Of a stretch of DNA of 64,000 nucleotides, positions 538 through 10,279 are shown one piece after another. Position 1 is the first letter of the stretch, and every line of letters begins with the position of its first letter. Source of the stretch: Nitrospira sp. (GTDB lineage: Bacteria > Nitrospirota > Nitrospiria > Nitrospirales > Nitrospiraceae); assembly GCA_019636815.1 (NCBI GenBank), contig JAHBWT010000011.1, positions 1 to 64,000 on the forward strand, in the 5' to 3' direction. The notes under the pieces were generated by a model, which was not told the DNA's origin, searched no databases, and saw nothing but the letters and a program-made list of their open reading frames with translations. The position numbers and the translations under genes are program-made.

Positions 538-1455
538 CTAGCGAGTTACCGTGAGTTCATGGGGCACTCCTACAAGCGTGCGTCTGGGAGAACAGGTGAT
601 GATCATCACCGCCAAGGTCATGATGTACGGGATCGCGTTGAAGATGTAGTATCCGCCCGTGATGCCGACGGATTGTAAGGAGGGTCCCAATGCGGCGGCC
701 CCTCCCCACAAAAGGGAGACCCACAGGCAGCCGATCGGGTGCCAGCGGGCGAAGATCACCAGGGCCACCGCCATCAGTCCCTGCCCGCTCGATAAGCCTT
801 CACTCCAGTTGAACGGATAATAGAGGGAAAGATACGACCCACCGATCCCTGCCAAGAATCCTCCCTGAGCCGTGCTGAGGATCCGTATGCGATCGACCGG
901 CAATCCGAGGGCGCGCGCCGCATCCGCGCTTTCGCCGACGACTCGTACTTTTAACCCCCACGCCGTGTTCTTCAACATCCATGCGAGCGCAATAGCCACG
1001 ACGATTCCCATCAAGAACAACGCATTGATTTGGAGAGCCGCCTGGAGTTGCGGAATATCACTCCATCCACCAAGGTCAATAGAAGGCAGCCGAGGCGCGG
1101 AGGGCTGGATGTACGGCTTTCCCAGAAAGAAGGCCAATCCCGTGCCGAACAGCATCATCGCGATCCCCACGGCGATATCGTTGACTCGTTGGAAACTGCA
1201 GAGCCAGCTGTGCAGGGCGCCGAGCACCATGCCGGCCAGTCCGGCGCACAGGACGCCCAGCCAGGGAGACCCGCTGTGCAGCGAAACGGCATAGCCTGTC
1301 ATCGCGCCCATGACCAGGGTGCCCTCCAGACCCAAGTTGATACGGCCGCTTTTCTCGGTCAAGCACTCGCCCAGCGAGACAAAAAGGAACGGCGTGCCGA
1401 TTCGAATCGCACCGCCTAAGACGGCGATGAGGACTCCCCACCATCCGATTTCCAT
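538..1455 (-). CDS. ABC transporter permease, BMP/nucleoside-type, second subunit
   Basis: This 305-residue inner-membrane protein has about eight to ten hydrophobic segments and the family signature [18 protein letters not shown] near residues 34-51, typical of NupQ/YufQ-like permeases that partner BMP-family binding proteins. A second typical stretch is the cytoplasmic [15 protein letters not shown] coupling region around residues 168-185. Its ATG overlaps the stop of the preceding permease gene (TGATG), so the two are translationally coupled. With the other permease it should form the membrane channel of an importer for a nucleoside- or ureide-like solute. No ATPase gene is visible; it may lie beyond the left edge. 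Confidence 0.85.
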
Positions 1456-2519
1456 CAGGACACTCCTTGTTTCTGCAACCTCGAAAAGCGGCCGTACAGA
1501 GTTTCGCTGAAGAGGATGACGAGAAAAATGATCCCCTGCATCACAAGGACGGTCGCATCGGGCAACTCGTGCGCGCGTTGCAGCAATCCGCTGCTCGCGC
1601 GGATGCCTCCCAGCAAAACGGCCACAGGAATGATGGCCAGCGGATTATTGCGGGCCACAAAGGCCACGAGAATGCCGGCATACCCATAATTGGCATTGAG
1701 GGTGTCATTGGCCCGGCCATGAATGGCCGCCACCTCCACCATGCCTGCCAGTCCACCGGCCGCTCCGGCCAGGAAACAGATGATCAAGATCAGCCGCCCG
1801 ACCGGCAACCCTGCGATTTGAGCCGCCCGAACATTCCCTCCGGCGATCTGGGACGCAAAGCCGAACACGGTGTGGTGCATGAGAAACCACGCGATGACGC
1901 ACGCCACCACTCCGAGCACTAATCCCCAATGGAGGTCTGTCCCGGGAATGACGCCGATCATATTGGCCTCTCCGATATGATGCGTCGAGGGATGGTTGAG
2001 GCTTTCCGGATCGCGAAAGGTGCTGGTGACGAAATGGTTCAATACCGCAATGGCGATATAGTTCAGTAACAGGCTGCTGATGGTTTCATTGACGGCGCGA
2101 TAGTGCCGCAATGCTCCTCCGATAATGAGCCACAGCCCGCCCGCCACCATGCCCGCGACCGCCATGGTGGTCAGAACGACCATGGGGGGAGCCGTCGGTA
2201 TGGCGAGCGCCGCAATAGCTGCGACAAGGCCGCCCATGACCACTGCTCCCTCTCCGCCGATGATAATCAAGCCGAGATATCCGGGGAGTGCGGTGCAGAG
2301 CGCCGTCAACATCAATGGCGCGGCTCGGATCAGCGTATTTTGCCAGGAAAACGTGGTGCCGAAGGCGGCCCGATACATGGTCTGATACACCTCGAACGGA
2401 TCGGCTCCAGCCGACGCCACGAAGACCCCGAACAACACCATCGAGACCATCAAAGATCCGACGATGATGAGAAACGGTTCCAGCGCTTTGTTCAGAGTTT
2501 GTGGCACGGCTCTGCTCAC
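1455..2519 (-). CDS. ABC transporter permease, BMP/nucleoside-type, first subunit
   Basis: A NupP/YufP-like membrane permease with many hydrophobic segments and the family motif PGYLGLIIIGGEGAVVMGG. An upstream ATG exists at 2573, but the GTG at 2519 overlaps the stop of the binding-protein gene as GTGA, which is the coupling seen elsewhere in this operon, so 2519 (354 residues) is preferred. It pairs with the permease encoded immediately downstream and with the BMP protein encoded upstream. Substrate cannot be read from the sequence; the operon context suggests a ureide or carbamoylated compound. Confidence 0.83.
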   Translation of the reverse strand: MSRAVPQTLNKALEPFLIIVGSLMVSMVLFGVFVASAGADPFEVYQTMYRAAFGTTFSWQNTLIRAAPLMLTALCTALPGYLGLIIIGGEGAVVMGGLVAAIAALAIPTAPPMVVLTTMAVAGMVAGGLWLIIGGALRHYRAVNETISSLLLNYIAIAVLNHFVTSTFRDPESLNHPSTHHIGEANMIGVIPGTDLHWGLVLGVVACVIAWFLMHHTVFGFASQIAGGNVRAAQIAGLPVGRLILIICFLAGAAGGLAGMVEVAAIHGRANDTLNANYGYAGILVAFVARNNPLAIIPVAVLLGGIRASSGLLQRAHELPDATVLVMQGIIFLVILFSETLYGRFSRLQKQGVS

Positions 2520-3649
2520 GACTTCGTCGAACCGATGACCCCTTCGACAAGCCAATCCATACTTTCCAGCCACATATCAGTCTGGACATGCTCCGTTCCG
2601 GCGGCGATCACCACACGGCCGGTGTTGTCTTTGATCGGCCCCTTGTACACGACCATCCCTCCACTCATGAATTTGTCTTTGGCAGCGTCGGCTTGTTTGC
2701 GAACGGCTTCCGTCACCACTTGGTTATAATCCGATACCTTGACGATGCCTTCCTTCAGCCCGCCGCGCACGAGGTGAGGAACAGGCTGCCCTTTCCGAAT
2801 CATGTCCGCATAATCCATGTAGACCTTGGCCCAATTCCATTCCGCTCCGGTGAGATACCCCTTCGGGGCCAGCTTCGATTGGTTGCAGTGGTATCCGGTG
2901 CAGTAGATGCCCCGCTTTTCAGCGGTCGTCATGACGACCTTGGGGCTGTCAACGTGGCAGGTAATGACATCGATGCCTTGGTCGACCAAGCTGTTCGTCG
3001 CTTCCGCTTCACGGACCGGCAGCGACCAGCCTCCGGTAAAAATCACATTGGTCGTACAGTTCGGCCTGATGCTGCGGGCGCCGAGCGTGTAGTTGTTGAT
3101 ATTGCGCAAGACCTGCGGGATGGGCTTGGCCGCCACGAATCCCAGTTTCCCGCTCTTGCTCATCCCACCCGCCACAATACCGGCGATGTACTGCGATTCA
3201 TCGATATAGCCGAAGTAACTGCCGGCGTTCTTGGGATGTTTCCCTTCCTGATAAAGCCCGCCGCAATGGAGAAACTGGATAGTGGGATATTGAGGAGCGA
3301 CCTTGAGAATGTGGGGATCGAAATACCCGAACGATGTGGGGAAGAGCACCTGGGCTCCGTCCAGTTTGACCATGCTCTCCATGGTTTTTTGGACCTCGAT
3401 GGTCTCCGGCACCTTTTCTTCATCGAAGGCCTTCACCCAATCGAGCTTGGCCACCGCCGATTTACCCTCGAAATGCGCCTGATTGTACCCGTAATCGTCT
3501 CGTGGCCCCACAAAAATGAAGCCCATCTTGACCTTGCCCGCCGCCCAGGCTTGGTCGGTCCAGCGTAAGCCACCCAACATTCCCAGGGCGCCGGCAGCTG
3601 CGGTTCCTTTCAGTAGCTGTCGTCTAGTCAGTTTCGGTGATGCAGCCAT
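2516..3649 (-). CDS. BMP-family (PnrA-like) ABC transporter substrate-binding protein, Tat-exported
   Basis: The 377-residue protein begins with a twin-arginine signal (TRRQLLKG at residues 8-15, then an Ala/Gly-rich core and AWAAG cleavage region), so it is exported folded to the periplasm. The mature part begins KVKMGFIFVGPRDDYGYNQAH, typical of the basic-membrane-protein family of nucleoside and related solute receptors, and keeps HCGGLY and DVITCHVDSP segments. It lies 9 bp after carbamate kinase and overlaps the first permease gene. Its likely task is to capture the compound degraded by the operon's enzymes. No lipobox is seen, unlike many Gram-positive members. Confidence 0.87.
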   Translation of the reverse strand: MAASPKLTRRQLLKGTAAAGALGMLGGLRWTDQAWAAGKVKMGFIFVGPRDDYGYNQAHFEGKSAVAKLDWVKAFDEEKVPETIEVQKTMESMVKLDGAQVLFPTSFGYFDPHILKVAPQYPTIQFLHCGGLYQEGKHPKNAGSYFGYIDESQYIAGIVAGGMSKSGKLGFVAAKPIPQVLRNINNYTLGARSIRPNCTTNVIFTGGWSLPVREAEATNSLVDQGIDVITCHVDSPKVVMTTAEKRGIYCTGYHCNQSKLAPKGYLTGAEWNWAKVYMDYADMIRKGQPVPHLVRGGLKEGIVKVSDYNQVVTEAVRKQADAAKDKFMSGGMVVYKGPIKDNTGRVVIAAGTEHVQTDMWLESMDWLVEGVIGSTKS

Positions 3650-3658
3650 ATGCCCTCC

Positions 3659-4666
3659 TTAATTGTGAGAGGTGAACGTTGGGACACCTTCCCGAACGAT
3701 GAACGTGCCGGTCTGACCTGCCATGGCGCGACCGATATTCTCAGGATTCGTGATCAGTCCCGTCTGCCCGCCTCCTTCGAGAAATTCGATTAGGGCTTGA
3801 ATCTTCGGCCCCATGCTCCCTTTGTCGAATTGATCGTCTGCATGGTGCTTCTTCGCTTCTGCGACCGTCATGCGATCCAGCCATTGCTGAGTGGGTTTGT
3901 TGAAATTGATGGCCACTTTTTCGACGCCGGTGGATACCATCAATAAATCGGCGCCGATGCCACGAGCCAGTAAGCTCGATGCCAGGTCCTTGTCGATGAC
4001 AGCCTCGACGCCGATAAGGTTTCCTTCCTCGTCCTGCACCACAGGAATCCCACCGCCTCCGCAAGCGATGACGACAAACCCAGACCGAGCCAAGAGGTTG
4101 ATGGCCGCCAGCTCGACGATACTCCTCGGCTGTGGAGACGGCACAACCCGCCGCCATCCACGACCCGCGTCTTCTTTGACGATCCATCCCTGCCGGCGCG
4201 CAAGCCGTTGCGCAGTCTGTTCGTCCATGTGTGACCCAATGGGTTTGGACGGGTCGGCAAAGGCCGGATCATTGCGGTCGACCACGGTCTGGGTCACGAT
4301 GGCCACCGCCTTCCGATCGATCTTCTGCTTGCGGAATTCGTTGTAGAGAGCTTTGAGGAACATGTACCCGATGCCGCCCTGCAGGTCGGCATCGGCGTAG
4401 TCCATCGGCACGGGAGGGACTTCCTCCAGAGCCAGCTCGGAACGGCGCAGGATGAAGCCGACCTGGGGGCCGGTCCCATGCGTAATCACGACATTCCATC
4501 CGGCCGCGATCATCTCCGCGATATGATGTGTCGTAATGGCAGCCTCTCGGCTTTGATCGGGAATCGATTCGTGATTCTTGTCGCGGATCAATGCGTTGCC
4601 TCCGACCGCAACGACTGCGAGCTTGTTGGTGGCGTTCACGAGAGCTTCCTCCCGGGCACTACCCAT
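3659..4666 (-). CDS. arcC: Carbamate kinase
   Basis: Carbamate kinase converts carbamoyl phosphate and ADP into ATP and carbamate, which decays to ammonia and CO2. The 335-residue protein shows the amino-acid-kinase landmarks AVGGNAL (about residues 20-26), THGTGPQVG, CGGGGIPVV and EAVIDKDLASS. It has about 16 extra N-terminal residues compared with ordinary family members; an internal start would remove them. The ATG overlaps the end of the allG-like gene by 8 bp, so both are co-translated. Next to FdrA/AllG/AllH homologues it should take carbamoyl phosphate made by that complex, as AllK does in Escherichia coli allantoin fermentation. Confidence 0.93.
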   Translation of the reverse strand: MGSAREEALVNATNKLAVVAVGGNALIRDKNHESIPDQSREAAITTHHIAEMIAAGWNVVITHGTGPQVGFILRRSELALEEVPPVPMDYADADLQGGIGYMFLKALYNEFRKQKIDRKAVAIVTQTVVDRNDPAFADPSKPIGSHMDEQTAQRLARRQGWIVKEDAGRGWRRVVPSPQPRSIVELAAINLLARSGFVVIACGGGGIPVVQDEEGNLIGVEAVIDKDLASSLLARGIGADLLMVSTGVEKVAINFNKPTQQWLDRMTVAEAKKHHADDQFDKGSMGPKIQALIEFLEGGGQTGLITNPENIGRAMAGQTGTFIVREGVPTFTSHN

Positions 4667-6071
4667 CGACTATGGTATTCGCCAACGCGGAAACGGCCTG
4701 AGTGAAACAAGCGAGCGGCGCGCGCGTGATTCCGGCCCCGATCTGGCCGATCCCGGCCTCACGATGGGCAATGCCCGTATTGATGATTGGTTGGATCCCT
4801 GTGTCGACGACTTTCCGGATGTCGATCCCGGCCGGTGAACCGGCAAAATTCAGAGACGGGAGCGTGAAGGCATTGTTACGGCCGATGGTGATGTGGGTCA
4901 TGGTCATGGTGTTGTCGATCGCATCCTGCGGCGTACCGCCGACGAACTTGACGATGGCCGGAGAGGCGGCCATGGCGAAACCTCCGACTCCGGCGGTTTC
5001 GGTGATGGCACTATCTCCCAAATCCGGTGCTGCGTCGGCGGTGGTGTAGCCGGGGAAGAACAGTCCGTCCACAAGCGGGGCTTCTGCGGTAAACCACCGG
5101 TTCCCAGTGCCGCTGACTCTGATGCCGAACTCAACTCCGTTACGGGCCATGGCTGTGACCATACTGCTGCCCGGAACGCCGTGAGCTGAGTCGAGCATGG
5201 CTTTACACGCGGCCATGGAAAGATTGAGAAAAAAGTGATCGTTGCCGGCGATGAACTCGACGACCGTCGAGACGTCGGCAGCCGGGATGTGTGCCTTCAA
5301 CAATGCTGAGATGAAGCGCTTGAGGAACAGCGAGGAAGCAGCGGCATTGCGATTATGCACTTCATCGCCCATGTGGAGAGCCTGCGCCATCATGGGCTTG
5401 AGATCCATCCCGCCCAGGAGTTCGACGCCGGTTCGCAGTGCCGGCGCGAGAACTTGCCCCATCCATTTGAGACGGGTGATCACGTCCGGGCCATTCGCGC
5501 CGAACCGAAGCGCCTTGCCGAGGCCTTCGTTAAAGTTGCTGAATGCCTGATTTCCATTGATCGTATTGGTCACCATCCACACCGGCATGGATGGGCTGAT
5601 GATCCCGGCCATTGGTCCGACGGCATTGTGGTGGTGGCAAGGCTCAAACGCGATCTCTCCACCAGAGGCCATGGCCTCTGCCTTGGCGAGGTTTTCAGCC
5701 CAGCCTTCATAGAGAATCGCCCCGACGATGGCTCCCCTCATGGGCCCGCACATATCCCTCCACGCAATGGGGGGACCACTGTGGAGAATCATGCGATCCG
5801 CCATGTTGGGAATGACTTGACCTGCGATACCGATTCCGCGAAGCACCGGCTGGGCCGATTGGTAGGCGTCGAAGGCTGTTTGATTCGCCGTTTCAACCGC
5901 GGAAAGGTTGATTAGTCGGGCCAGGTCACGGCCGACCTCCGCTTGTCCCTGCGCGGGCGGAGCCCATTCGATCTGGAGAGCGGAACCACCTGCCATGGCG
6001 ATGGAATCTGCGAAGGAAGATAGACCGACGTTCAATACTTGAAGTTTTTCCTGAAACAGGGCCTGTATCAT
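4659..6071 (-). CDS. allG: DUF1116 protein, AllG-like subunit of a carbamoyltransferase complex
   Basis: The 470-residue protein belongs to DUF1116, the YlbE/AllG family that acts with FdrA and AllH as oxamate carbamoyltransferase in E. coli. Recognisable parts are EPCHHHNAVGPMAGI near the middle, NTINGNQAFSNFNEGLGKAL, and a C-terminal AGSPAGIDIRKVVDTG. A longer open frame reaches 6218, but the ATG at 6071 overlaps the fdrA stop as ATGA and the upstream residues are Arg/Gly-rich non-family sequence, so 6071 is chosen. It sits between fdrA and carbamate kinase. The actual carbamoyl acceptor or donor is not known here. Confidence 0.88.
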   Translation of the reverse strand: MIQALFQEKLQVLNVGLSSFADSIAMAGGSALQIEWAPPAQGQAEVGRDLARLINLSAVETANQTAFDAYQSAQPVLRGIGIAGQVIPNMADRMILHSGPPIAWRDMCGPMRGAIVGAILYEGWAENLAKAEAMASGGEIAFEPCHHHNAVGPMAGIISPSMPVWMVTNTINGNQAFSNFNEGLGKALRFGANGPDVITRLKWMGQVLAPALRTGVELLGGMDLKPMMAQALHMGDEVHNRNAAASSLFLKRFISALLKAHIPAADVSTVVEFIAGNDHFFLNLSMAACKAMLDSAHGVPGSSMVTAMARNGVEFGIRVSGTGNRWFTAEAPLVDGLFFPGYTTADAAPDLGDSAITETAGVGGFAMAASPAIVKFVGGTPQDAIDNTMTMTHITIGRNNAFTLPSLNFAGSPAGIDIRKVVDTGIQPIINTGIAHREAGIGQIGAGITRAPLACFTQAVSALANTIVDG

Positions 6072-7624
6072 AATCGCCCTCCGACAGCGCCTGCCCGTAC
6101 CGCCACTGCGGTTGCCATACGCACCGCCTGCGCGTTGCTCTCGGCCAGAATGACCCCGGCTTCTCGCAAGGCCATCTCCTGCCGAGCGAGATTCTGCGGG
6201 TCTCCGGCAGTCCCGCACACGAATCCTACGATCACCAGATCCCGGCCGGCCTTGCCTGCCAAGTCGCGCGCTTTTTGAACGACCGGTACGATTTCACCGG
6301 CGGGATCGGCATGAGACCCATGCCCGAGGACGACATCCAGCAGAATAACCGCCGTCTCAGGATCGGTGGCCTCCTTGATGAGGCGTTCATTCCGCAGTCG
6401 ATGATCGATCATCGGATGTGGACGTCCGCGGGTGAACAAATCGTCACCGAGATCGACAACGGTGTGCGCGCGACTGGTCCAGACATCGTGTAAACGGTCT
6501 CCGGGGTCCACGGGCGTATTGGAAAAGACTTGCCCTAATTCCTTCTTCAGCAGGAGCGTTGCTTCGTAACAAAAGGTCCCCCCACTGTACAGGCCGCGAA
6601 TGTATTGCTGTCCGGGGGACAATCCGGACGGAATGGATATCGGAGTGCATTTCGGTTTGGCATCGTCTGGATTTCGGCCTTCGGCGAGAGCAACAGCTGC
6701 CGCTGCGGCATCTTCCAGAGTGGTGGCGGCAAACACGTTCCCGCGCCTGACGAGCGCAGGATCAGCGCCGAGAAAATTCGCCACGACCGGTTTCCCGGCG
6801 CCTTCTGCCGCTTCCAGCACGCGCCCGGCCACTTCCGGAGACGGAGGCTTGGAGATCAGCACGATGACCGAGGTGGAGGGGTCGGCCGCGAGGGCTTTCA
6901 ACCCCTGGAGCATGGAAATGCCGCCCACGTCGCGGTGCAAATCATGCCCGCCGGTGCCGATCGCTTGTGAAATGCCGCCACCCCACCGATCGGCCAGGCA
7001 GGTGACCTGCTGTAAGCCCGTGCCGGATGCTCCGACGACACCGATGACTCCATGGCGTACCACGTTGGCGAAAGCGAGCGGGATGCCGTTGATGATGGCC
7101 GTTCCGCAATCCGGACCCATCACGATGAGGTCTCGGGATTGGGCGAAACGTTTGAGGGCGATTTCGTCCTTCAACTCGACGTTGTCACTGAACAGCATCA
7201 CGTTGAGGCCGAGACTCAACGCTTTGAAGGCCTCGGATGCCGCATACTCGCCGGGAGTGGAGATCAAGACGAGATTGGCACCGACCATATTGCCAAGGCC
7301 CATTTCAATGCTTCGTGGAGGAATACCGCGTGACAATCCGTTTTCTGACGACGACGGAGGCTGCTTCAATGCCGACTCCGCGGCTGCCAACGCCGATTCC
7401 AGCGCACCGGCATTGCCTTGTAGCGAGATCAGCAGGTCGTTGGCGCTGGCGTCGACGGATTCGGTCAGCAAGCCGGCATCTCGGAGCAAGCGTATGTTGT
7501 TGGGGGAAGCCATAACGGCCGAAGCTTGCTCCACGCCCGGCAGCTTGGCGAATGTGGAGGAAAGCTGCATCAATGAGACGGAATCGCGATAGAAATTTCG
7601 GAGTACTTTGGCGGCCGTGGCCAT
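6068..7624 (-). CDS. fdrA: FdrA-family protein, acyl-CoA-synthetase-like subunit of a carbamoyltransferase
   Basis: A 518-residue FdrA homologue with two succinyl-CoA-synthetase-like halves. The N-terminal half contains MGPDCGTAIINGIPLAFAN and GVVGASGTGLQQVT; the C-terminal half contains LDVVLGHGSHADPAGE, where the histidine resembles the phosphohistidine region of CoA ligases, and IVGFVCGTAGDPQ. In E. coli FdrA works with AllG and AllH to move a carbamoyl group between oxalurate and phosphate. It is the first gene behind the operator-promoter at 7657-7686 and overlaps allG by four bases. A general CoA ligase is unlikely given its neighbours. Confidence 0.9.
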   Translation of the reverse strand: MATAAKVLRNFYRDSVSLMQLSSTFAKLPGVEQASAVMASPNNIRLLRDAGLLTESVDASANDLLISLQGNAGALESALAAAESALKQPPSSSENGLSRGIPPRSIEMGLGNMVGANLVLISTPGEYAASEAFKALSLGLNVMLFSDNVELKDEIALKRFAQSRDLIVMGPDCGTAIINGIPLAFANVVRHGVIGVVGASGTGLQQVTCLADRWGGGISQAIGTGGHDLHRDVGGISMLQGLKALAADPSTSVIVLISKPPSPEVAGRVLEAAEGAGKPVVANFLGADPALVRRGNVFAATTLEDAAAAAVALAEGRNPDDAKPKCTPISIPSGLSPGQQYIRGLYSGGTFCYEATLLLKKELGQVFSNTPVDPGDRLHDVWTSRAHTVVDLGDDLFTRGRPHPMIDHRLRNERLIKEATDPETAVILLDVVLGHGSHADPAGEIVPVVQKARDLAGKAGRDLVIVGFVCGTAGDPQNLARQEMALREAGVILAESNAQAVRMATAVAVRAGAVGGRL

Positions 7625-7656
7625 GTGGTCGGTCTCTGATGAGGTCTACGAGCCAA

Positions 7657-7686
7657 AATAGAACACAATATTGTATACAATGTCAA
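7657..7686 (-). promoter_or_regulatory. Promoter of the fdrA operon with GntR-type operator in the spacer
   Basis: Read on the minus strand, a perfect -35 box TTGACA (7686-7681) is followed after 18 bp by TCTATT (7662-7657). The spacer contains the perfect 12-bp palindrome ATTGTATACAAT (7670-7681), the type of site bound by FCD-class GntR repressors. A nearly identical site lies before the GntR gene at 9532-9543. Binding there would block RNA polymerase, so the operon is probably repressed until a ligand binds the regulator. The boxes are seen directly; function is inferred. Confidence 0.7.
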
Positions 7687-7783
7687 GAGAGAAACTGGGA
7701 GCTTGAACTCTATGGCAAATCAGCTTGTGGAACATTGTCTCATCGCTCCCTTATCGTTCGAGCCGCATTCCTGGTGAAACGAA

Positions 7784-8734
7784 TCAATTGAAGAGCACAG
7801 ACTCATCAAGAAGATGAAGCGCCGGGCTTTGCCACGCGAGACAGCCCAACAGCAGTCCCAACACGCCGTCGGGGCCGGACGTATGGCCGACTTGTAAAGC
7901 GGCTTGTGTGGCCACCCTGACGCTCATCATGTCGTTCGCCTGCTTCAGCTGCTGGGCTAATTTCGCGATCGGCTCAGCAATGTGCCCTTTGACTGCAGAT
8001 CGGAGATAGGCGCAGCTGATCTCATTGGTGTTTCGTGCTAGTGCAGGTATTTCAGCCTTGAGGGCGGCGAGGAATTGCCTCCGCGATGGGCTGTCACACG
8101 CCGTGGACCATAAGCCGGCTAGATAGCCCACGAGAAAATCATCACCTGAAGGGGTTAAGCCGGGGCCCCGCCCGATCAATGGCATGATGGAAGCCCTGGC
8201 ATCCTCCGATTGAAAATCTTTCGTCGCTTGCAGGAGAGCAGAAATCGTATGAATCGACGGCTGAAGAAAGACCTCTGTAGCGGTCGGAGTGTATGACCGC
8301 TCCTTCGAAGGAGAAACAACTCGCGGAATCTTTGATAGGCCGCTCCTACGGCGAAAGGTTTTCAATTCGCACCAAGCGATTGCCCAGGAGTGGGCTTGAG
8401 CATATTGGCGGAGATCGATGTGTAACTCTTGGAGATCGATGTGCCAAGGACGTGCGGATCGCAGGTCGACGGAAAAAGCGGATCCGCCGGTGCGGAGGAT
8501 GCCGCCTCGGCAGGCGACCGGTTGTCCGACTTGCACAAGATTGACGAAGGTAAATTCGGGTGGGGTATGCAAGCGAATGCCGTGAGGAACATTGCCTTTC
8601 TGGCTTGGAAGCAGGGTCAGCAGCATACCAGGCTCCAGCCATAGGTTGCAGGCGTGGTGGAACACGCTGTGCACGGTTCCGCTGAAATGATGAATCGGCA
8701 CCTGAACGCCGACCGAAAGGGCTTGGCAGCGCAT
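7784..8734 (-). CDS. allH: DUF2877 protein, AllH-like subunit of a carbamoyltransferase complex
   Basis: The protein (316 residues) belongs to DUF2877, the YlbF/AllH family, recognised by IGRGPGLTPSGDDFLVGYLAG around residue 200 and by the C-terminal HTSGPDGVLGLLLG. ATG 8734 is preferred because GGAG lies five bases before it; a GTG two codons upstream is also possible. In E. coli AllH is the third subunit of oxamate carbamoyltransferase with FdrA and AllG. Here it is not directly next to fdrA: it follows the GntR gene by about 35 bp and is separated from fdrA by the operator-promoter, so it may be transcribed with the regulator. Confidence 0.82.
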   Translation of the reverse strand: MRCQALSVGVQVPIHHFSGTVHSVFHHACNLWLEPGMLLTLLPSQKGNVPHGIRLHTPPEFTFVNLVQVGQPVACRGGILRTGGSAFSVDLRSARPWHIDLQELHIDLRQYAQAHSWAIAWCELKTFRRRSGLSKIPRVVSPSKERSYTPTATEVFLQPSIHTISALLQATKDFQSEDARASIMPLIGRGPGLTPSGDDFLVGYLAGLWSTACDSPSRRQFLAALKAEIPALARNTNEISCAYLRSAVKGHIAEPIAKLAQQLKQANDMMSVRVATQAALQVGHTSGPDGVLGLLLGCLAWQSPALHLLDESVLFN

Positions 8735-8770
8735 GGACACTCCATTGCCCGATACATTCCAAGGCGACCG

Positions 8771-9484
8771 CTACGTTCTCATTGAATACGCTCTAGCCAG
8801 CGCATCCTTGATCGATGTATGAACGTTGTTGCGCCCTTCATCGATATTCCGTTGCATCGCGACACGGGCGCCAGGCGCATCTTTGGATTCGATACGCTCC
8901 AGAATTTCCAGATGTTGACGGCACGTGCTGTCAGGTCGATCCGGCTTGCCGAAATCGATAATACGAAACAGCATCAACCGCTCGTTGATGGCGCGAAGGT
9001 GACGCAAGAGGGATTTGTTTCCCAAGGCGTGGGCGAGTGTTTCGTGAAACAGCGTGTCCAGTTTGGCGAGTTCCTCGGGTTCCTTGGAAGATCCGTCCAG
9101 CAGGTCCGTCCATGTCCGCTTCAGCTTAACCAAGTCTTCAGTATCATTCTTTTTCTGCGGACCTCTGGTCGCCAGACATTCAACGGCATACAGTTCCAAG
9201 GCTAAGCGGACCTCGTACAGTTCCTCGATCTCGCCGATGTTGTACTGTCTGACGACATAGGCCCGATTCGGTAATTTTTTCACGAATCCGTCGGATGCTA
9301 GGACACGGAGCGCTTCCCGTACCGGACTTCGACTCACCTTGAATTGCTCGCACAGCTCAGCTTCGGTCAGTCGATGTTCAGGCGGGTAGTGCCAGTGAAT
9401 GATCTGTTCCTTGAGTGTGGCGACGATTGAAGCACTGAGATTTGACGGTTCTCGCTCCCGTAACTGGTCGTTTGACTTCCCCAT
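8771..9484 (-). CDS. GntR/FadR-family (FCD) transcriptional regulator
   Basis: A 237-residue regulator with an N-terminal winged helix (about residues 20-85) containing LTEAELCEQFKVSRSPVREA, the standard GntR recognition helix, and a C-terminal all-helical FCD ligand domain. The FCD metal/ligand residues are visible as LDTLFHETLAHAL and RQHLEILERI. It is the first gene of the operon cluster. A 12-bp palindrome at 9532-9543, about 48 bp before its start, matches the one in the fdrA promoter in 11 of 12 positions, so it probably represses itself and the catabolic operon. The inducing ligand is unknown. Confidence 0.9.
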   Translation of the reverse strand: MGKSNDQLREREPSNLSASIVATLKEQIIHWHYPPEHRLTEAELCEQFKVSRSPVREALRVLASDGFVKKLPNRAYVVRQYNIGEIEELYEVRLALELYAVECLATRGPQKKNDTEDLVKLKRTWTDLLDGSSKEPEELAKLDTLFHETLAHALGNKSLLRHLRAINERLMLFRIIDFGKPDRPDSTCRQHLEILERIESKDAPGARVAMQRNIDEGRNNVHTSIKDALARAYSMRT

Positions 9485-9531
9485 AACCAGAACCCTTCAG
9501 AACCCCTTCGTTTAAGTCGGGCAGCAGACAC

Positions 9532-9543
9532 ATAGTATACAAT
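9532..9543. promoter_or_regulatory. Likely GntR operator upstream of the regulator gene
   Basis: ATAGTATACAAT differs at one base from the palindrome ATTGTATACAAT in the fdrA promoter. On the minus strand it includes TATACT, a good -10 hexamer, so bound repressor would cover the promoter of the GntR gene. The repeat of one unusual palindrome in just these two gaps supports a shared regulator. Confidence 0.6.
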
Positions 9544-9650
9544 GAAATGTACCAAATAAAATACGCTTGAACGGGGCGTCAATCGATAAACGACAGCGTG
9601 GAGAGTTGAGGGTGTGGCGGCCGAATCTCGTAGTCCCAGGACAGTGTTAC

Positions 9651-9684
9651 GATGACGAAAGAACCGCGGGTCTCTTTCGTCGTC
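9651..9684. terminator. Stem-loop between slp and the GntR gene
   Basis: Twelve-base arms GATGACGAAAGA (9651-9662) and TCTTTCGTCGTC (9673-9684) pair with one G-T position around a 10-base loop. It lies about 55 bp past the slp stop codon. There is no clear T-run on either side, so it may be a factor-assisted terminator or an RNA-stabilising hairpin. Confidence 0.4.
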
Positions 9685-9739
9685 GGGTATTCACAATGGT
9701 CTTACGGTAGGCCTATGACGTGTAATGATCCATGGGTGA

Positions 9740-10279
9740 TTACCACCAATAGTAAGGCCAGTACGGTGACCAGTAAGGACCCCAATAGGGACCGGGGCTG
9801 ATGGGGCGGCGGATGCGAGGTGCCTCCTCATCGTCTTCGGTCCACACGCGTAGATTGGTGATGTGTATGAGCGGGTAGGTATATTCGGTTTCATCCAGCG
9901 GCAGGACGATGGTACCGGCCATCTCTCCTGTCACGGTAAGGAACGTGCCGGGCGGCACCGTCGCAGGATCCAGGAATTCCTTCTGCAAGGCTACAAAACG
10001 GCCTTCGGACTTGCTGAGCTCCCTCGTTGGTTGGAGGGAAGAAGTCAGCGGCAATTGTAGGATTTCAATTCTGGTTCCTTCCTTGAGCCTTCTTGCTGCC
10101 AACACTTTCCCGCCGAAAGTGACCGGCTGTCCGTTGTACGATTCCGGTTCCGCCTTCACTTGCGAATAACTAATCTGAGGCGCGCCGGAAGATAGCGTGT
10201 CGGCATGCTCATCCGTCAATGCGCAAGCCGGCAGGATTAATAGTAAGAACGCGATGCCTACATGTCGGGGGATGTTCAT
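9740..10279 (-). CDS. Slp-family outer-membrane lipoprotein
   Basis: With ATG 10279 as start (MNIPRHVGIAFLLLILPAC) the protein is 179 residues with a lipoprotein signal and lipobox LPAC. The body ISYSQVKAEPESYNGQPVTFGGKVL matches the Slp (starvation lipoprotein) family, a small OB-like fold found in the outer membrane. The C-terminus is unusual: a Pro/Tyr/Trp-rich tail GPYWGPYWSPYWPYYWW. A start at 10315 would add 12 residues that spoil the signal peptide. It is divergent from the DsbA-like gene, with an 81-bp shared promoter region. Role is unknown beyond envelope stress association of the family. Confidence 0.8.
   Translation of the reverse strand: MNIPRHVGIAFLLLILPACALTDEHADTLSSGAPQISYSQVKAEPESYNGQPVTFGGKVLAARRLKEGTRIEILQLPLTSSLQPTRELSKSEGRFVALQKEFLDPATVPPGTFLTVTGEMAGTIVLPLDETEYTYPLIHITNLRVWTEDDEEAPRIRRPISPGPYWGPYWSPYWPYYWW

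Follow-up and report, generated by a model that had tools for sequence, protein, structure and literature searches.

A palindromic candidate operator of an FCD-type GntR regulator is conserved in the two promoters of an oxamate carbamoyltransferase gene cluster of Nitrospira

Closely similar 12-nt palindromes are found upstream of gntR and upstream of allF (fdrA) in a Nitrospira gene cluster. Sequence comparison makes it highly probable that the adjacent FCD-type GntR protein has its operator in this 12-mer; the protein would act as an autoregulated repressor and make the cluster inducible. The cluster is situated in a stretch of 64,000 nt, here termed the window, and the source genome (G000) consists of 4.01 Mb in 143 contigs. 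In the open-licence literature, no regulator was found described for the choice by Nitrospira nitrifiers of urea or purine breakdown products over free ammonia. The candidate operator-regulator pair, which would link the oxalurate/biuret cluster with urea import, provides a concrete regulatory candidate.

The cluster genes are all on the minus strand of the window (Table 1). By sequence match, AllF, AllG, AllH and carbamate kinase occur together, the combination by which an AllFGH cluster is recognized. The start of allG was picked by eye, at an ATG near the allF stop. The gap between gntR and allH is 30 nt and that between allH and allF is 159 nt, the latter holding the second promoter. The preliminary description of this DNA spoke of a carbamoyl operon. 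The AllFGH, carbamate kinase and transporter genes are indeed present, but transcription is probably in two units, the first gntR-allH and the second starting with allF, and not in one. At its downstream end the cluster of relatives also codes for an ABC ATPase and two isochorismatase-like proteins (identified by eye).

The four nearest named relatives of the gntR product show 78–82% identity and have Nitrospira or Nitrospirae in their record titles. The regulator is present in 42 of the 175 family genomes. An AMO-family protein is found in 61 of the 175 and in 30 of the 42 regulator-bearing genomes (counted from the listing). Many genus members have UrtA and AMO; the source genome yielded no UrtA match, and its assembly (95% complete) no AMO-family match.

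Table 1. Coordinates of cluster genes and promoter features in the window.
Feature	Position (nt)	Strand	Remarks
Two ABC permeases	538..2573 (1455-2573, 538-1455)	-	Pfam BPD_transp_2 in both
BMP-type substrate-binding protein, ABC transporter	2516..3649	-	Pfam Bmp 3.4e-40
Carbamate kinase (allK/arcC type)	3659..4666	-	TIGR00746, 365 bits, cut-off 358
allG (DUF1116)	4659..6071	-	Pfam AllG 3.1e-97; 470 aa open frame from 6071
allF (fdrA)	6068..7624	-	Oxamate carbamoyltransferase subunit; NCBIfam NF004760, 506 bits, cut-off 433
Second, weaker operator-like box ATTGTGTTCTAT	7658..7669	-	9/12; abuts O2; includes weak −10 TTCTAT
Operator O2 (candidate), ATTGTATACAAT	7670..7681	-	Upstream of allF; conserved in relatives' allF loci
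−35 TTGACA of allF promoter	7681..7686	-	One base common with 12-mer O2
allH	7784..8740	-	Oxamate carbamoyltransferase subunit; Pfam AllH 2.7e-26
gntR	8771..9484	-	FCD (FadR-subfamily) GntR regulator; Pfam GntR 2.7e-15, FCD 5.3e-22
Operator O1 (candidate), ATTGTATACTAT on minus strand	9532..9543	-	Upstream of gntR; overlaps TATACT (9534-9539)
Half-box TTGGTAC, upstream of O1	9549..9555	-	Conserved TnGTAC in gntR promoter alignment

Both 12-mers are found where the preliminary description had placed them (7670–7681 and 9532–9543), O2 at 45 nt upstream of allF and O1 at 47 nt upstream of gntR. The letters at 9532–9543 are ATAGTATACAAT. The perfect TTGACA reported before fdrA is real and lies on the minus strand at 7681–7686; in the alignment of allF promoters, the TTGAC columns hold approximately 2 bits each. 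The "−10 box" that had been assigned to the same promoter is, however, weak. It reads TTCTAT (7658–7663), agrees at 3 of 6 positions, and is situated 17 nt downstream of TTGACA; a sigma-70 scan of 7500–9800 with a 9-of-12 threshold detected no promoter. At gntR, the reported overlap of the 12-mer with TATACT (9534–9539) is confirmed, and in the source genome this TATACT is combined with a poor −35 (TTTTAT, spacing 16). Weaker boxes accompany the main sites. TTGTGTTCAA is conserved in the allF promoter alignment at the weaker box beside O2. Extra half-boxes 7–12 nt from the operator centre are reported for GntR families (PMC4494728, section 17), and the weaker boxes that flank the main site here are in keeping with this placement.

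At ≤2 mismatches the 64-kb window has no match other than O1 and O2. Shuffled versions of the window contain 0.78 such matches on average and 16 of 100 shuffles reach two, thus the bare window count is not significant. A genome scan with one mismatch, suggested as a check in the preliminary description, shows three places, i.e. O1, O2 and ATTGTAGACAAT at C77:15063, the last of which falls within a predicted ORF. The sites are few and two of the three are in promoters, but the count equals the approximately 2.9 places per genome that base composition leads one to expect by chance. The expectation for each of the two intergenic regions is 0.0006. Thus it is the position of the sites and not their number that is unusual.

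For the comparison of relatives, 43 loci around regulator copies were used; the source genome itself contributed a 44th stretch, L109. The cluster-linked or most similar copy is termed GntR1 (25 loci including the window), a label that is not derived from a gene tree. ATTGTATACAAT is found upstream of GntR1 as an exact copy in 19 of the 25 loci, with ≤1 mismatch in 24 and with ≤2 mismatches in all 25. Upstream of allF the site is present at ≤2 mismatches in 18 of 18 loci (the window counted), 17 of them within 260 nt. The 18th site (L094) is beyond this 260-nt limit and came to light only in a wider search of 600–700 nt; it displays one mismatch and lies 533 nt upstream of the hit. A candidate operator shared by the two promoters of the cluster, as had been proposed, is thus supported by 25/25 gntR and 18/18 allF upstream regions, counts that are not independent since the loci of relatives share descent. 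Autoregulation, proposed as well, is likely, with the site in the regulator's own promoter at every one of the 25 loci.

Among the 4096 palindromic 12-mers, the word ranks first before gntR, where the next unrelated word is found in 2 of 25 loci at 1 mismatch. In the allF upstream regions it has to share the top rank, with TTTGTATACAAA when two mismatches are allowed and with two overlapping words when one is allowed. The operator columns average 1.9 bits (gntR) and 1.8 bits (allF) compared with 0.26–0.92 bits in the 40-nt flanks, as calculated from 24 of 25 gntR contexts and 16 of 18 allF contexts (23 and 15 distinct, respectively). The alignments show the block aTTnnActTnGTAcnCnngATTGTATACAAT for gntR and the block CTTGACTTkGTATACAATnTTGTGTTCAAgTT for allF. 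AllG is found in 16 of the 43 loci at 77–90% identity and in none of L124, L125, L127, L128 and L129. In these same loci the operator is kept before gntR and there is no allF match in the genome. They also display no allG or carbamate kinase gene between gntR and the BMP transporter, and allH is a remnant or absent.

The gntR product consists of an N-terminal GntR winged helix and a C-terminal FCD domain, both above the Pfam cut-off, and it is the one FCD regulator found in the source genome in a search at E 0.001. The consensus of the FadR subfamily is TKGT/ACMA, with a GT-AC spacing of 2 or 3, the value being 2 in some groups (PMC4494728, section 10). O2 is TTGT-AT-ACAA and fits this consensus with spacing 2. 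O1 is TTGT-AT-ACTA, one base off the consensus in the right box; relatives mostly show TKGTATACAA. The present site thus has the TKGT-N2-ACMA palindrome and the half-box distances of the GntR families described in PMC4494728, but Nitrospirota are absent from the taxonomy table of that paper.

A closer comparison is possible with Atu1419 of Agrobacterium fabrum, a VanR-type FCD GntR repressor that was crystallised with ATGTATACAT. In the solved structure its DNA contacts are made by Glu34, Arg45, Thr46 and Arg49, with Arg45 reading guanine (PMC7797058). The residues that align to these positions, E41, R52, S53 and R56, are invariant in 25 of 25 GntR1 and 30 of 30 other copies, i.e. Glu34, Arg45 and Arg49 are conserved in the present GntR and Thr46 is replaced by Ser. 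One Atu1419 site lies over the −10 and another between the −35 and −10, and its own gene is repressed (PMC7797058). The same two site placements are found here. Unlike the present regulator, Atu1419 controls hydroxycinnamate genes, and its sites have ATG...CAT flanks in place of ATTG...CAAT. The FCD domains also differ. The metal ligands of Atu1419 are Asn137, His141, His192 and His214; the corresponding places hold D143 and H147 (Atu1419 alignment), H191, and N213 instead of His. Asn occupies this fourth place in all 51 rows reaching it (alignments with 7u5q and 7xp0). As judged by these alignments, GntR does not have the Atu1419-type metal set of Asn/Asp plus three His; the DNA-binding claim is unaffected by this.

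A tandem paralogue, GntR2, adjoins GntR1 and an Slp-type lipoprotein gene in eleven loci (L110, L111, L112, L113, L116, L118, L119, L122, L125, L128 and L129). In other genomes GntR2 is found alone beside Slp. The GntR2 label means only that a copy is not cluster-linked, and among the 30 rows so labelled L103 and L104 are more distant copies. In the 11 tandem loci, 45–56 of the 62 residues of the DNA-binding domain are identical between GntR1 and GntR2, a likeness that makes a shared operator plausible. A site with ≤2 mismatches is present within 250 nt upstream of 1 of the 30 GntR2-type copies, and GTATAC is found there in 7 of 30; with 1/30, GntR2 appears mostly not to be autoregulated in such a way.

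Matches outside the cluster are also found in relatives. In eight of these genomes, approximately 18 of 41 places with ≤1 mismatch are at gntR, allF or urtA; roughly half lie at other places, several within predicted ORFs. Of 79 genus genomes, 41 have the regulator and average 3.4 places at ≤1 mismatch; the 38 without it average 1.0, and 26 of these 38 carry at least one match. Stretches of 19 kb from eight relatives, located at the downstream cluster end or past it, yielded two matches with 2 mismatches (L186, L192) and none closer. The preliminary description had predicted a local regulon. This agrees with the sites in both cluster promoters and the few sites in the source genome, but relatives also have the urtA site and other matches. 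The switch is of an ordinary kind, well supported by comparison, with a regulon in relatives that is probably wider than had been supposed.

The urtA link arose post hoc, out of the off-cluster matches. The site has the form TTGAC-N16/17-TGTATACAAT, is situated 0.27–0.38 kb before the gene and overlaps the −10, e.g. at L172:1520–1531. At ≤2 mismatches it is present in 24 of 32 urtA loci of regulator-bearing genomes and in 0 of 38 loci of other genomes; split by regulator, genomes with GntR1 have it in 15 of 21 loci, those that carry GntR2 alone in 9 of 11, and those with neither in 0 of 38. These counts cover 70 of 71 urtA loci, the remaining one having 58 nt upstream, from 67 of the 110 UrtA genomes; the urtA start was taken as the hit or the end of the stretch and not from annotation, and the stretches L273 and L286, which ended at once, were left out. 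In the G079 row (L196) the urtA leader was recognised from similarity of the DNA alone, and urtA itself is on another contig. In the regulator-bearing genomes 8 of 32 urtA loci have no site. G071, G082 and G092, which are GntR1 genomes without a urtA site, resemble the regulator-less promoters. Eight of the 38 regulator-less urtA regions have a recognisable TTGAC promoter 305–466 nt upstream, with TATATA, TATAAG or TATAAC as the −10.

In a UrtA tree of 51 rows, 23 have both regulator and site, 6 the regulator only, 0 the site only and 22 neither. The raw Fisher p for the association is 2.5e-9, a value that ignores kinship. With correction for the tree, approximately 2 of 6 independent contrasts support the co-occurrence, 0 oppose it and 4 are ties, which is not significant; thus the raw p is not the main support. 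The co-occurrence of regulator and urtA site may have come about through shared descent. It is slightly on the probable side that the FCD regulator and its tandem paralogue form, with one operator, an organic-nitrogen regulon that jointly controls urtA and oxalurate/biuret use, the operator lying over the urtA −10 in regulator-bearing genomes only.

In the mechanism proposed here, a GntR dimer would bind each palindrome of the TTGTATACAA type and block RNA polymerase as long as inducer is absent. At gntR-allH the bound protein would cover the −10, and at allF-allG-carbamate kinase-transporter it would sit between the −35 and −10. It is envisaged that a small organic-nitrogen metabolite binds the FCD domain, upon which the DNA would be released, with induction and autoregulation as the outcome; oxalurate or allophanate are guesses for this inducer. 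In relatives, the same regulator or GntR2 may also control the urea transporter promoter.

Activation of allF by GntR bound at the same site is unlikely. The good −35 and weak −10 of allF are as in promoters that need help, but sites over the −10 or in the spacer usually block polymerase, and Atu1419, whose sites are placed in the same two ways, represses its own and other genes. That the 12-mer is merely a core promoter element, with TATACAAT as the −10 of these bacteria and an accidental symmetry, is quite improbable. At allF the word is directly behind the −35 and not at the −10 in 18 loci, both palindrome halves are conserved, and other −10 sequences are found in the 8 urtA promoters of regulator-less genomes; these points stand against its location at the −10 of gntR and urtA, with a −35 approximately 16–18 nt upstream, and the matches also seen in regulator-less genomes.

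Short palindromes are also bound by other winged-helix families, and the assignment of the site to GntR comes from comparison of sequences. A real operator that binds another regulator is nevertheless very improbable: the site adjoins gntR in 25/25 loci, is found in 0/38 urtA loci of genomes without GntR, and has the consensus of the subfamily to which the one FCD protein of the source genome belongs. The probability of a chance resemblance between two AT-rich promoter stretches is close to nil. The shuffles that reach two matches at 2 mismatches and the genome count at expectation would allow it, but it is contradicted by the conservation in 25/25 and 18/18 loci and by the first or joint first rank among the palindromes.

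Related clusters are known. The allFGH and carbamate kinase genes of E. coli provide similar functions, an oxamic transcarbamylase and a catabolic carbamate kinase (PMC11326118, PMC12535856), but the title of PMC12535856 names ArcA and AllS as their regulators, and no adjacent GntR is mentioned in the accessible portions of these papers. The allFGHK/biuH cluster of comammox Nitrospira is similar in gene content and has gntR in a synteny figure legend (PMC12625717); unlike the present analysis, the accessible portion of that paper gives no operator or regulon, and the word promoter is missing from its main text. Open-licence literature on Nitrospira GntR/urtA, on oxamate carbamoyltransferase with GntR, on oxamic transcarbamylase, and on TTGTATACAA with GntR does not describe the operator. 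The switch type is well known, and the network was not found described in the open-licence literature.

A long leader of approximately 360 nt before urtA (L172:1532–1894) is conserved among relatives. DNA similar to the L172 leader is present in 17 genomes, each of which has a GntR; two of the matches are <35 nt. An Rfam search of seven off-cluster loci showed no match at gathering score; the off-cluster conserved stretch turned out to be the urtA leader. Control by this leader as a 5′ UTR is possible. In G070, the operator-bearing urtA leader and urtA are approximately 15 kb apart (L180 and L252; C6:716739 and C6:732285), which suggests an insertion or rearrangement between them.

In the source genome, an intergenic TTGTATACCA is present between divergent predicted genes at C100:5101 (L337:1501–1510) and is possibly a further site.
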